Shown one piece after another: positions 1,654 through 8,364 of a DNA stretch of 64,000 nt; position 1 is the first letter of the stretch; each line of letters starts with the position of its first letter. Below the pieces are notes generated by a model, which saw nothing but the letters and a program-made list of their open reading frames with translations, was not told the origin of the DNA and made no database searches. Both the position numbers and the translations under genes were made by a program. The DNA comes from Peptoniphilaceae bacterium (GTDB lineage Bacteria > Bacillota > Clostridia > Tissierellales > Peptoniphilaceae): the NCBI GenBank assembly GCA_028723425.1, contig JAQYEZ010000038.1:1-64000 (forward strand). Reading direction: 5' to 3'.

Positions 1654-2681
1654 TATATATCCCTTTCTTTTATACACGCCTTATTTAAAAATATCAATAA
1701 ATGCTCTGCCATATCAAAGTCCTGGCTTTTTTGCAAAACTTCCATCTTATATAAATAATCATGGAGGTCAAAAAGTTCTTCTAAAGAAAAATTATTGACA
1801 AAAGTTTTTAGTTTTTTTAACTCAAAAGATCCAATAGATAAGCATTTCATAATAAATTTTTCATTATAAGATAATTTAAGTAAATATTTTACGCCAATAA
1901 GATTTCTAACTTGCCTTATAATCATATGATATATCATAAATAAATCTTCTCCACTTTCTTTCATATGAAAAAGGGCAGCAGATGCTTGTCTTAAATCTCT
2001 TTGAGAAAAACTATCAGTCAAATTAAATATATTTAAGTTAAGAACCAAGTCAAGTTGGTCATGTACATCTTTTTTTGAAACTCTTATATCTTTGGAATTA
2101 GAAATAATTTTATCAACTGTATTTACCACATCATATAAGTCTATATTACTGTTTTTACTAAGATAGGAAAATCTTTCTATTATTTCTGTGATCAAGGAGT
2201 TTTGTATTTTTTTACCAGCTCTCGAAAATCTTATTCCAATAAATGATGAAAGTTCTTGATTATTAAGCCTACTTATTTCTACTATATTGCCATATTGTAA
2301 AACTTTTTTATAAAACTTGCCCTTAAAGGGACTTGATTCTGAAAAAATAAAAAATGAAACATAGGCTGGAAAGTTTTCCAAATCTTTCTCCAAATTATCG
2401 AGTATTTCTTTGTAATCTTTGATCTTATTTTTTGATAAATCTATATTTCTCCATATAAGATATTTTTTATCTTCCATTACAGGATAAGTCTCAAATGATG
2501 TTTTTATAGTTTCATAGTCTGTTTTTTCTTTTATATCTATATAATTAAAATCAAGAAAAGAGATGTTAGACTTACAAGCTTCTATTATAGACTCATTTAA
2601 ATATTCTTCTTTTGAATCAAATAAATAAATTCCCGAAGTCTCTTTTTTGATTAATTTATTCATAAATTCTTTATAATTCAT
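1653..2681 (-). CDS. holA: DNA polymerase III subunit delta
   Basis: Sequence pattern and position downstream of comEC, as in many Firmicutes. Confidence 0.8.
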   Translation of the reverse strand: MNYKEFMNKLIKKETSGIYLFDSKEEYLNESIIEACKSNISFLDFNYIDIKEKTDYETIKTSFETYPVMEDKKYLIWRNIDLSKNKIKDYKEILDNLEKDLENFPAYVSFFIFSESSPFKGKFYKKVLQYGNIVEISRLNNQELSSFIGIRFSRAGKKIQNSLITEIIERFSYLSKNSNIDLYDVVNTVDKIISNSKDIRVSKKDVHDQLDLVLNLNIFNLTDSFSQRDLRQASAALFHMKESGEDLFMIYHMIIRQVRNLIGVKYLLKLSYNEKFIMKCLSIGSFELKKLKTFVNNFSLEELFDLHDYLYKMEVLQKSQDFDMAEHLLIFLNKACIKERDI

Positions 2682-4867
2682 TGAAAGAATTCTCCCTTCA
2701 AGTATGGTTGTATTTGATATGAATTATCTGAAAATCTAATTTCTACAAAGCCATCTGTCTGAGTATTATATATTTTTCTACCCTTAAGATTATCCAAAAC
2801 TTCCTTGTGTGGATGGCCGTAGCTGTTATTTCTACCTGCAGATATTAGACTAACTTTAGGATCTAGCATTTCTATAAAGGCCTTGGAAGTAGAATTTTTT
2901 GAACCATGGTGAGAAACTTTTAGTATATCTGCCTTTAGTCTAAGTTTATCTTCGTAAGATGATTCCAAATCTCCAAGGCTTAAAATTTTTGTTCCTTTTA
3001 TATTTATTAATAGTCCCAAAGCTTTATTGTTTGTATCTTCTCCATCTACTCCATCAAATACAGCTTCTATATATCCATTCTTTAATTTTACCCTATCACC
3101 CACTTGCATAGCTATAAAATTATACTTTGCTAGGTCTTTTTCATTTAATGCTGTAGAAATTACACTTTTTATATTGAAATAATCATCAATTATATCAAGG
3201 TTACCAGCATGGTCTTTATCCATATGTGAGATAAAAACTGCTTTTATATCCTTAACTCCCATCGCCTTTAACAAAGGAACTAAGATTTTTTTGCCAGAGT
3301 CATAATTATTATATTTTGGTCCTCCTAGATCAATAAGATAAGTATCAGATCCATCTTTTAAAATAAAAGCATCACCTTGACCTATATCTACCATAGCATA
3401 TGTTGGCTTATCAAAAACAATAGGCTCTATAGTCAAAAATCCCACTAGGATTATAGAAATGCCAAGATATAATTTATTTATTAACTTATTAGACTTTTTT
3501 CCATAAAGTAAAACTAGGATTAAGACAAAGAAAAATATATACAAGAGTATTGATTCTTTCTTAAAATCAATATTAAATATTTTAAAATAAGCCAAAAATT
3601 TACTTACATCCAAAATGTTTGCTATAAAAAATTCTAATATCTTAAACACTAAGCTCAATAATTTTCCAAAGAAAGGATATAAAATAATAATTCCAAATAC
3701 TAGGTAGATAGTAAGTTCAAATATAGGAACTACTACTAAGTTTGCAAAAATTGAAATTAAGTTAATCTTGCCATAGTAAAATATTAAAAATGGAAAAATT
3801 GCTAGCTGTATAGCAAATGAAAAAATAGCTTTTTTTGCTATTAAACTATCTCTTTGATAATATTTTATTTTTGGATATACTACATAAATTCCTGTTGCAG
3901 CGGCAAAACTTAATATGTAAGAAGATGAAAGTAGAGCAAAAGGATTAATTAATAAAATTACTATAGCTGCTACTAACAAAGACTTTTTAGGATCCAAAGG
4001 CTCTTTTAAATTAAAGGCAAGAAAACTAATGGTTGTCATTATAAGAACTCTTTGAACTGAAATTGGAAAGCCTATCAAATATCCATAGAAAAAGCATAAG
4101 CTTAAAGCTGTAAAAAATCCGTATTTGTAGTTAATATTAAGGCATGAGAAAATCAAAAGTATAAAACTAACCAATATATCTATATGCAAACCAGAAACAG
4201 CTAACATATGAGATAGTCCCAAATCTTTTATATCATCATTATCTATCAAGGATTGACCCAAAATAACCGATTTTACAAAAGAAGAAGAATCATTGCTTAG
4301 GTTTTTATCAAAAAGTTTGTATATATATTTACTAAAACTATTTTTTAATCCTAATAAAATAGACTTTGATTTACTTTTACTATAAATATGTTCAATATCA
4401 AGTACTGACTTTATCCTTTTAGATAAAAGGTAGGACCTATAGGAAAAAAGATAAGGATTTGTATTTTTATCGGGAATTTTTATTTTTGCCTTAACCAATA
4501 GCTTATCACTTATTTGGTAATTATCATTTGAGGAAAAAACAGACTTTTCTTCACATCCATCTTCTATATCTTTTGCCTTAACAGTGTAAGTATAGTAATC
4601 ATCTCTTTGTTTTTTTTCAACTATGGTTACATCCAATAATCTATTACTCTTATCTGCAAGTTTTAAGGATGAAAAAGTAAAAGATGAATAGAAAAATCCA
4701 AATATAATTCCTATACATAAAAGCATAAGGACTTTATCATACAAATAAAAAACAAATGCCAAAATTAGACTAAAAAGTATAAGATAAAATCCTACGTTTT
4801 GATCAAGTATAAATATTCCTATTCCTGATAAAATCCCCAAAAGGGTAAAAAGTAAATTCTTTCTCAT
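2678..4867 (-). CDS. comEC: ComEC/Rec2 DNA internalization competence protein
   Basis: LGLSHMLAVSGLHIDILV motif, multiple TM helices, C-terminal metallo-beta-lactamase domain (DVGQGDAF-like 'DIGQGDAFILKDG', SHMDKDHAGN, SHHGSKNS). Confidence 0.95.
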   Translation of the reverse strand: MRKNLLFTLLGILSGIGIFILDQNVGFYLILFSLILAFVFYLYDKVLMLLCIGIIFGFFYSSFTFSSLKLADKSNRLLDVTIVEKKQRDDYYTYTVKAKDIEDGCEEKSVFSSNDNYQISDKLLVKAKIKIPDKNTNPYLFSYRSYLLSKRIKSVLDIEHIYSKSKSKSILLGLKNSFSKYIYKLFDKNLSNDSSSFVKSVILGQSLIDNDDIKDLGLSHMLAVSGLHIDILVSFILLIFSCLNINYKYGFFTALSLCFFYGYLIGFPISVQRVLIMTTISFLAFNLKEPLDPKKSLLVAAIVILLINPFALLSSSYILSFAAATGIYVVYPKIKYYQRDSLIAKKAIFSFAIQLAIFPFLIFYYGKINLISIFANLVVVPIFELTIYLVFGIIILYPFFGKLLSLVFKILEFFIANILDVSKFLAYFKIFNIDFKKESILLYIFFFVLILVLLYGKKSNKLINKLYLGISIILVGFLTIEPIVFDKPTYAMVDIGQGDAFILKDGSDTYLIDLGGPKYNNYDSGKKILVPLLKAMGVKDIKAVFISHMDKDHAGNLDIIDDYFNIKSVISTALNEKDLAKYNFIAMQVGDRVKLKNGYIEAVFDGVDGEDTNNKALGLLINIKGTKILSLGDLESSYEDKLRLKADILKVSHHGSKNSTSKAFIEMLDPKVSLISAGRNNSYGHPHKEVLDNLKGRKIYNTQTDGFVEIRFSDNSYQIQPYLKGEFFQ

Positions 4868-5111
4868 GACTTCCTCTGTTTTAACAAATAAATTCTACTA
4901 TAAGCCAAAGTGCTTACTTATATTATAAACTTTTATGACTTCTACATTAATAGCATAACAGAAAAATTCAAAAGCTTCTAGTTATAAATTTCCAAATTAA
5001 TACTTAGCTATAAGAAGCTAAATTTTAAGCAATAGCTAAAGCTTTTATGAGAATACATTAATTATTGTTCAATAAATTATTTATGTGATAAAATGAAATT
5101 GAGGTATAGAG

Positions 5112-5861
5112 ATGAAAGAGTTACTATATATTAATTATCCAGAAATAACAAACATAGAGGCTAATATCATAAGCAGAAAATACGAGGGAGATAAAACCAA
5201 AATAATCCTTGATAGGACAATTTTTAGTCCATATGATGACTATCTTTTCAATGATCAAGGATATATTTCTTCTTTGAAGCTTGTTGATGTTTATGAAAAT
5301 AACAAAAAAATAGTTCATGTCGTAAAGGGAAAACCCGTAAAAAGCAAAGTAGAGCTTAAACTTGATAGTGCAATACGTTTTCATAATCTTTACTATAATA
5401 CTGCCTACCATATCTTAAAATTTAGTTTGGAGAGTCTTTATAACATAAAATACTCTAAATTAAAACTTTACAATAATTATGGTCAATTGGTAATAAGTGA
5501 TTTTTATGTTGACTTTGACAAAAACGAAGTTGAAGATTTTATTAACCATTTAATTAATGTAAATATAAAAATAGAAAATCTTGGTTTGGTTAAAAGCATT
5601 GGAAATTTAGGTCAAGTTGAAAATCCAGGCATAAGCCTAGCCTATACAGGAGATATTTTTGGCATACACATATTTAGATATAACATTATTGCCAATGGCC
5701 TAATTATAGAATTTGTAACAGGAAAAGACTTTTTAAAGCTTAATCAAAATAACATAAGGCTAATTAAAACTATAGAAAAACTTGCAACTAGCGATGATTT
5801 AGCATCAAACAAAATAACCAAAATAATTTCTGCTATTAAAAACAATAAATACTACAAATAG
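5112..5861 (+). CDS. Divergent AlaX/AlaRS editing-domain-like protein lacking most zinc ligands
   Basis: RFHNLYYNTAYHILK resembles the HTAQHLL region; GLIIEFVTGKDFLKLNQNNIRLIKTIEKLATSDDLASNKITKII resembles the C-terminal part of AlaX-type proteins. Confidence 0.55.
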   Translation: MKELLYINYPEITNIEANIISRKYEGDKTKIILDRTIFSPYDDYLFNDQGYISSLKLVDVYENNKKIVHVVKGKPVKSKVELKLDSAIRFHNLYYNTAYHILKFSLESLYNIKYSKLKLYNNYGQLVISDFYVDFDKNEVEDFINHLINVNIKIENLGLVKSIGNLGQVENPGISLAYTGDIFGIHIFRYNIIANGLIIEFVTGKDFLKLNQNNIRLIKTIEKLATSDDLASNKITKIISAIKNNKYYK

Positions 5862-5955: not shown

Positions 5956-8364
5956 CTATTTTACAACTATATTTAAAATCTTTGAAGGAACAAAGATTAC
6001 TTTTACAATTTCTTTTCCTTCTAATTGATTTTTAATTTTATTATCTTCTTTTACTAGTTCTAATACTTGATCTTTTGTAGCATCTAAGGCAATTTCTATA
6101 GTTGTTTTTACTTTTCCATTAATTTGTACTGGCATTTCATAAGTATCAAATTTAAGTTTTTCTGGATCAAAACTTGGCCATTGAGCTTGATTTAATTGAC
6201 CTTCAAAACCTATTTCTTGCCATAGTTCTTCTGTTAAGTGAGGAGCTACTGGATTTAATAGGATTAGATATGTTCTATAATCCTTCTTGGTGATTTTACC
6301 TAAATTTCTCATCTGATTTAATAGGGTCATAAGTTGAGCTATAGCTGTATTGTATTTTAGATTTTCGTAGTCATTTGATACTTTTTCTATGGTTTGGTTT
6401 ATAAGAACTTCCAAGTCTTTTGAATATTCTTCTCCCTCTTCTACCAAATCGTAAAGGTTAAATACTCTTTCAAGATATTTTCTACATCCCTTAACGCCTT
6501 CATCAGACCAAGGAGCTGTAGACCTAAAATCGCCAATAAACATTTCATAGCATCTTAAAGTATCTGCACCATAATCTCTAACTATATCATCAGGATTTAC
6601 AACATTTCCTCTTGACTTGGACATTTTTTGATGATCTTCTCCAAGAATCATTCCGTGTGAAGTTCTCTTGATATATGGCTCTTTAGTATTTACTATTCCT
6701 ATATCATAAAGGAATTTGTGCCAGAATCTTGAGTATAATAAGTGAAGAGTAGTATGTTCCATTCCTCCATTGTACCAATCAACAGGACCATAATATTCTA
6801 GGGCTTCTTTTCCTACTGGAGCCTTATCATTATGGGGATCCATATATCTTAAATAATACCAAGATGATCCAGCCCATTGTGGCATGGTGTCTGTTTCTCT
6901 TTTGGCTGGTTTGCCACATATAGGACAAGTTGTATTTACAAAGGATTCTATTTTTGAAAGTGGACTTTCTCCATCATCTGTAACTTCATAAGATTCTACT
7001 TCTGGTAGAGTTATAGGAAGATTCTCTTCCTTTTCTGGAACCCAACCATGTTCAGGACAATAAATCATTGGAATTGGTTCTCCCCAATATCTTTGTCTAG
7101 AGAAAACCCAATCACGTAGTTTGAAATTTTTACTTTTTTTACCGATTTTATTTTCTTCTAAATACTCTATTATTCTTTTCTTTGCTTCCTTTACAGAAAG
7201 ACCATTTAAGAATTCTGAATTTATCATAATTCCTTTGTCTATAGATGTGGTAGGAAGTTCTTCTTCTCCAGTATCAACAACAGGAATAATTGGCATATCA
7301 AATTTTTTGGCAAATTCATAATCTCTAGTGTCATGTCCAGGAACAGCCATAATAGCACCAGTTCCATAGGACATTAGGACGTAGTCAGAAACCCAAATTG
7401 GAATTTCTTTTCCTGTTAGAGGATTTATAGCATTTAGTCCCTCAATTCTTACCCCTGTTTTTTCCTTGGCTAGCTCTCCTCTTTCAAATTCAGATTTCTT
7501 TTTTGCTAATTCTTGATATGCTAAGATATCATCAATATTTGTAATTTTTTCAATTAAATCATTTATAATTGGATGTTCTGGAGCTATTACCATATAAGTA
7601 GCCCCAAAAATTGTATCAGGTCTTGTTGTGTATACAGTTAACTTATAGTCTTCGTTTGCAACATTAAAATCTATAGATGCACCATAAGATCTGCCAATCC
7701 AATTTTTTTGTTGAGTTTTTATTTTTTCTTCATAATCAACTTCATCCAAATCATCAATTAGTCTATCTGCATATTCTGTTATTTTTAGCATCCATTGATT
7801 TTTTTCCTTTTGGATAACTTCTGTACCACATCTTTCACATCTTCCATTTATTACTTCTTCATTGGCTAAACCAACCTTGCATGAAGGACACCAATTTACT
7901 TTCATTTCTTTTTTATATGCAAGACCTTTTTTGTATAATTGTAAGAAAATCCATTGGGTCCACTTGTAATAATTCTTATCAGTTGTATTTATTTCTCTTG
8001 ACCAATCAAATGAAAAACCAATAGATTTCATTTGTTCTTTGAAATGAGCTATATTATCTTCTGTAACTTTGGCAGGGTGGATTTTATGCTCAATAGCATA
8101 GTTTTCTGTAGGAAGTCCAAAGGCATCCCAGCCCATAGGATAAATTACATTTTCTCCCTCAAGTCTTCTCTTTCTACTAACTATATCAAGGGCAGTATAG
8201 GGTCTTGGGTGACCAACGTGAAGACCTTGACCAGATGGATAAGGAAATTCTACTAAAGCGTAGAATTTTTTCTTGGTTGGATCTATTTTGCTTTCAAAAG
8301 TTTTTTCTTCATCCCATATTTTTTGCCATTTTTTCTCTATGGCATTTGGATTATATTCTCTCAT
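5956..8364 (-). CDS. leuS: Leucyl-tRNA synthetase
   Basis: [21 protein letters not shown]-type motif, KMSKSRGN; 802 aa. Confidence 0.98.

Follow-up and report, generated by a model that had tools for sequence, protein, structure and literature searches.

AlaX proteins are enzymes that clear wrong amino acids off alanine tRNA by metal-dependent hydrolysis, and editing domains of this kind are usually treated as either active or lost. A third condition has been described in the TrpRS of Plasmodium falciparum, where an AlaX-like domain (AXD) has all HxxxH/CxxxH ligands replaced, by Asp-9, Ser-13, Asn-116 and Val-120 (PMC3680381). Plasmodium TrpRS needs the N-terminal region that contains the AXD to bind tRNA and to aminoacylate it, and the authors of that study speak against an editing role (PMC3680381). 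In the open-access literature, we have found no paper joining "alanyl-tRNA editing" with comEC, or AlaX with Anaerococcus.

Here we describe a free-standing AlaX-derived protein encoded divergently from comEC in a window of 64,000 nucleotides (positions 1 to 64,000 of contig JAQYEZ010000038.1, assembly GCA_028723425.1). From the letters of this DNA, the gene had been described as an AlaX-like protein without most of its zinc ligands, possibly a repurposed, non-hydrolytic paralog. We have followed up this original prediction with profile searches, structure modelling and comparison of the locus across the Peptoniphilaceae.

The window protein has an AlaX fold with a substituted zinc site

The reading frame is uninterrupted, starts with ATG and encodes 249 residues. 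NCBIfam NF040865 (AlaXM) matched the protein with E=1.4e-12, at a score (47.9 bits) below the curated family cut-off of 300 bits, and TIGR00344 (AlaRS) matched with E=5.5e-10, far under its own curated cut-off. The Pfam search of the protein gave no match, and the first scan of the genome contigs with the single protein sequence gave zero matches. Searching PDB sequences retrieved the Clostridium perfringens AlaX 3kew (E=7e-10). We have also built an HMM from 21 comEC-linked/Tissierellales AlaX proteins (the canonical HMM), which aligned over residues 1-157 with E=2.5e-26 and, in a second segment, over residues 172-244 with E=4.7e-5. The AlphaFold2 model, generated with an alignment of the genus Anaerococcus as input, had a pLDDT of 90.8 and a pTM of 0.85. 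In a Foldseek search against the PDB it ranked 3kew first (E=3.2e-18, target TM-score 0.77-0.80), followed by AlaRS editing domains and then archaeal AlaX-M. Homology to AlaX/AlaRS editing proteins is thus well beyond chance. The AlaX scaffold of the original prediction is borne out by profiles and fold alike, a missing superfamily match or a different fold being the two points on which it could have failed.

The register of the zinc site was set by the canonical HMM alignment, in which the counterpart of HxxxH is N96-T-A-Y-H100 and that of CxGTH is N171-P-G-I-S175 (Table 1). Three of the four ligands are therefore replaced (H96N, C171N and H175S) and H100 remains, in agreement with the predicted Asn of NTAYH and the predicted loss of about three ligands. 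The CxGTH counterpart had been placed at LAYTGD, and this part did not hold: LAYTGD lies directly behind N171-S175 and is equivalent to the "HVxxTGE" of canonical proteins. Among 32 proteins of Anaerococcus and g41, position 96 is Asn in 24, Ala in 7 and Ser in 1. His at position 100 occurs only in the window species, its relatives all carrying Y, I, F, S, C or V.

The same alignment showed D43-Y44-L45 in place of the GGQ of the first editing-site loop, of which I37, F38 and P40 are conserved throughout Anaerococcus, and a deletion of about 20 residues just N-terminal to the C motif. The protein thus has neither the HxxxH plus CxxxH zinc site nor the glycine-rich GGQ loop of an AlaX trans-editing enzyme; an AlaX fold with substituted ligands is what an AlaX-derived pseudoenzyme should have. 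The C-terminal extension is what is left of the helical region found behind the editing domain of AlaX-L. In the window's branch this remnant is a helical stub of 45 residues; the Anaerococcus forms of 203-209 residues lack it.

Table 1. Coordinates of the AlaX-derived gene, its elements and its neighbours in the window
Feature	Position	Strand	Remarks
comEC (Competence PF03772 plus metallo-beta-lactamase domain)	2678..4867	-	Divergent neighbour, upstream; marks the conserved locus
Extended -10-like element TGATAAAAT	5086..5094	+	17 nt upstream of ATG; absent from the scanner's list
Zinc-less AlaX-derived protein	5112..5861	+	249 aa; scaffold of the editing domain, then a short helical extension at the C-terminus
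First loop of the former editing site (residues 33-48, LDRTIFSPYDDYLFND)	5208..5255	+	Canonical TxFYPxxxGGQ
N96, Asn in place of first zinc His of HxxxH	5397..5399	+	Alignments
H100, sole ligand position still His	5409..5411	+	Alignments
N171, Asn in place of zinc Cys	5622..5624	+	Alignments; invariant in Anaerococcus
S175, Ser in place of fourth zinc ligand (His of CxGTH)	5634..5636	+	Alignments
C-terminal extension, residues 205-249, two predicted helices	5724..5858	+	Model, HMM and ortholog comparison
leuS	5956..8364	-	Convergent neighbour, downstream

Loss of the zinc site is fixed in Anaerococcus

An ortholog was found in 29 of the 30 other Anaerococcus genomes searched, and none of these 29 has any of the four zinc ligands left. 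Most of the Anaerococcus sequences have Asn at the first His position and every one has Asn at the Cys position. The ortholog alignment that had been proposed as a check thus showed the ligand loss to be fixed. We have rejected true gene absence in the remaining genome (G009): its assembly is missing the whole comEC-leuS region, and the sister genome G001, nearly identical in rpoBC, keeps it, which marks the absence as an assembly gap. Apparent co-loss of comEC and the AlaX-derived gene in G009 was likewise dropped as a hint of a functional link.

No canonical AlaX above the family cut-off was found across the 31 Anaerococcus genomes. The window's genome has intact AlaRS editing motifs (HSATH and CGGCH) and encodes a DTD homolog, so trans-editing seems dispensable in it. 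We have rejected the idea that a second AlaX compensates in the genus, since an AlaX-L on contig C14 of genome G000, outside the window, was found in no other Anaerococcus. This second copy (L107:3842-4963, minus strand) has an intact CGTCH and itself carries Gln at the first His (QTAYH). Its close relatives belong to distant genera of the family (g53, g7, g49 and g39), which suggests horizontal acquisition. Separately, in genome G015, whose contig matches A. octavius NCTC9810, the AlaRS editing-domain region (C1:567022-567647) is in two pieces with internal stops, and this alaS looks frameshifted or misassembled.

The zinc-less form is derived from a canonical AlaX at the same locus

We have located comEC in 126 of 130 Peptoniphilaceae genomes, fetched the upstream regions and subjected them to an iterated-HMM search. 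A homolog divergent from comEC, 189-634 residues long, was present in most genera. Outside Anaerococcus there were 62 homologs: 6 canonical (G086, G088, G089, G100, G121 and G123), 1 with two ligands, 11 with one and 44 with none, so that 55 of 62 have at most one of the four. The homolog with two ligands (G102; L110, 1012-2067), reading H,L,C,L at the four positions, is a possible intermediate of decay. Each clade has its own conserved substitutes, as in g57 (MQENLGNA...EGPALKRTGEIG).

In the outgroup Tissierellales families, the gene divergent from comEC encodes a canonical AlaX with HxxxH and CxGTH complete; therefore the canonical form is ancestral and the zinc-less one derived. The position is common to Anaerococcus, other genera of the family and the canonical outgroups, and the window gene is the positional ortholog of canonical AlaX. 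This rules out an origin as a paralog, the one part of "repurposed, non-hydrolytic paralog" that failed; the scaffold and the loss of the zinc site both stood, the gene is retained under purifying selection where tested (below), and the zinc-less form proved to be family-wide. Assuming irreversible loss, the species tree (rpoB plus rpoC, 2341 columns) requires at least two independent losses of the zinc site. The gene tree, built from fast-evolving proteins, groups all zinc-less rows with a support of only 51. There may thus have been at least two losses, going by the species tree, or one, going by the gene tree.

Several genera have comEC and no AlaX-derived gene, which is therefore dispensable there; in genera that gave no match, the divergent ORFs found at this locus were rejected as unrelated replacements (a ThrE exporter, a Tim44-like protein). 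Many zinc-less forms of sister genera retain the C-terminal half of AlaX-L. The AlphaFold2 model of one such long form (pLDDT 86, pTM 0.59) matches the AlaRS editing domain plus C-Ala in fold, and it is Anaerococcus that trimmed the C-terminal half. Zinc-less homologs of g57 reach 517-634 residues (L112:2387-3940, L126:911-2815 and L139:2138-3979), far longer than canonical AlaX-L. In a related g57 form of 533 residues (L095), the editing-like and C-terminal parts are separated in the alignment by an insertion that is long and highly charged.

Neighbouring genes and -10 elements of the locus

The leuS neighbour of the window gene was also found in A. vaginalis-type species and in g41. At the short-form (203-209 residues) Anaerococcus loci, such as L033, L040 and L047, two tandem ABC exporter genes lie downstream on the same strand and leuS is not there; gaps of 158-258 bp argue against a single operon of these genes with the AlaX-derived gene. 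In G072 (L096, 4136-5275), the zinc-less AlaX gene has shifted about 10 kb away from comEC and is divergent from an AraC-type regulator.

In most Anaerococcus, the spacer to comEC is only 41-66 bp long and contains extended -10 elements, found for comEC in 20 of 21 tabulated loci and for the AlaX-derived gene in 14. At 10 of the 21 loci, and also at the contig-end locus L048, which was counted outside them, the back-to-back -10 elements of the two divergent genes merge into a 20-bp near-palindrome, ATTATATCATATGATATAAT, unique within each locus that carries it. Example intergenic regions with back-to-back elements are L034:7947-8000 and L047:7950-8000. The window spacer is 244 bp long and the palindrome is absent from it; TGATAAAAT occupies the position equivalent to TGATATAAT of other Anaerococcus. 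A generic promoter scan was uninformative, with 8 sites observed against 8.0 expected. Going by these elements, comEC and the AlaX-derived gene are probably driven by closely coupled promoters.

Such an arrangement could point to a protein-protein partner, with the AlaX scaffold now serving as a structural or regulatory subunit (e.g., of AlaRS or of a comEC-locus product) and the former pocket as an interaction surface. The locus fixed beside comEC, the partly overlapping -10 elements in many Anaerococcus and the C-Ala-like part retained in many genera, though trimmed in Anaerococcus, would all fit. However, several genera keep comEC without the gene, the G072 homolog adjoins an AraC-type regulator instead, and synteny with comEC is also expected from vertical descent alone. 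We regard this explanation as unlikely, if the strongest of the alternatives.

Purifying selection on the AlaX-derived gene among close relatives

We have estimated dN/dS (Nei-Gojobori) for pairs of Anaerococcus orthologs. Close pairs gave 0.06-0.27 for the AlaX-derived gene, 0.12-0.26 for comEC in the matching pairs and 0.02-0.13 for housekeeping neighbours. Distant pairs gave 0.47-0.79 for the AlaX-derived gene, with dS near saturation and comEC higher too. Retention under purifying selection was therefore seen among close relatives. The three segments of the canonical editing site were conserved above the rest of the domain in Anaerococcus plus g41 (p=7e-5), in two other clades (p=0.0013 and 0.002) and in a small fourth set (p=0.05). 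This speaks for a role that the old pocket has kept and against free decay; the segments form the helix and strand core, and folding constraint contributes to their conservation. Because close-pair dN/dS is comEC-like and the former pocket is best conserved, the gene is not a pseudogene.

These data bear directly on the possibility that an enzyme redundant to AlaRS cis-editing and DTD is disappearing lineage by lineage under weak residual constraint. Rapid sequence divergence, the wide spread of lengths, the genera wholly without the gene and the half-decayed G102 homolog are what slow decay would produce. Yet frames are intact in 30 of 30 Anaerococcus orthologs, close-pair dN/dS is low, the pocket segments rank among the most conserved, the predicted fold is orderly and of high confidence, and the lone Anaerococcus absence is an assembly gap of an entire region. 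Slow decay is thus already disfavoured, and we consider it improbable. Least probable of all is a zinc-free deacylase, substrate-assisted like DTD and archaeal ThrRS editing domains and perhaps acting on a new substrate, for although the pocket segments are conserved and several clades have come to carry Asn in place of the first ligand, no candidate catalytic residue common to all clades was found, and in Anaerococcus the GGQ loop is missing, as are some 20 residues close to the C motif.

A probable pseudoenzyme with a retained pocket

The window protein is very likely zinc-less, non-hydrolytic by the AlaX mechanism and functional. We favour, as the probable explanation, an AlaX-derived pseudoenzyme whose old pocket still binds a ligand without cutting it. 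The gene would descend vertically from that of a canonical trans-editing AlaX-L, which in Tissierellales lies divergent from comEC. With the zinc site lost in most Peptoniphilaceae, metal-dependent deacylation of Ser-/Gly-tRNA(Ala) would not be expected, since established AlaX chemistry depends on the metal-binding site. In the window's genome, AlaRS cis-editing and the DTD homolog could cover the need for deacylation. The protein would have been kept afterwards, with purifying selection among close relatives, and its emptied pocket may bind a tRNA by its aminoacyl/CCA end, or else a free amino acid, and leave it uncut. It would then act as a non-hydrolytic tRNA-binding or amino-acid-responsive factor.

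Based on precedent and on the conserved former pocket, tRNA binding is the leading hypothesis for the ligand; we propose binding of tRNA or of its aminoacyl end tentatively, at somewhat less than even chances. The pI of family homologs spans 4.3-9.8, overall charge is unconserved and no conserved charge pattern or basic surface was found among them; this spread weakens a universal tRNA-binding role. Pocket residues differ by clade, and therefore the bound ligand may differ too. A bolder and rather doubtful extension would see throughout the family a class of pseudo-editing proteins, bacterial and free-standing, that may have arisen from AlaX on more than one occasion at a single locus. They would use the emptied pocket as a sensor of tRNA charging or of an amino acid, and their target would be translation, or else the adjacent comEC via the shared divergent promoter region.

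Most of the Peptoniphilaceae keep an editing protein minus its catalytic metal site, at an unchanged locus and under purifying selection where tested; therefore the zinc-less AlaX of this family probably has another job. With the canonical orthologs of sister genera and outgroups, the locus offers a natural before-and-after series for an editing scaffold without catalysis. It also carries an annotation warning: comEC-linked "alanyl-tRNA editing proteins" of Peptoniphilaceae are mostly not editing enzymes.

Comparison with known systems

The AlaX-M/AlaX-L trans-editing enzymes (NF040865; PDB 3kew, 2e1b and 9iuw) share with the window protein the fold, the order of elements and the orthologous locus in Tissierellales. 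Unlike them, the window protein keeps a single zinc ligand of the four, has lost its GGQ loop, is short at the C-terminus and scores far below the family cut-off. The folds of the editing domain and of the C-Ala of Archaeoglobus fulgidus AlaRS (3wqy and 2zvf) both recur in the long zinc-less forms from sister genera, which have no aminoacylation domain and have lost the zinc site. The Plasmodium TrpRS AXD shares the replacement of zinc ligands, including Cys to Asn; it is, however, fused to a synthetase and known from one eukaryotic enzyme lineage, whereas the window protein is free-standing, bacterial and of a family-wide kind.
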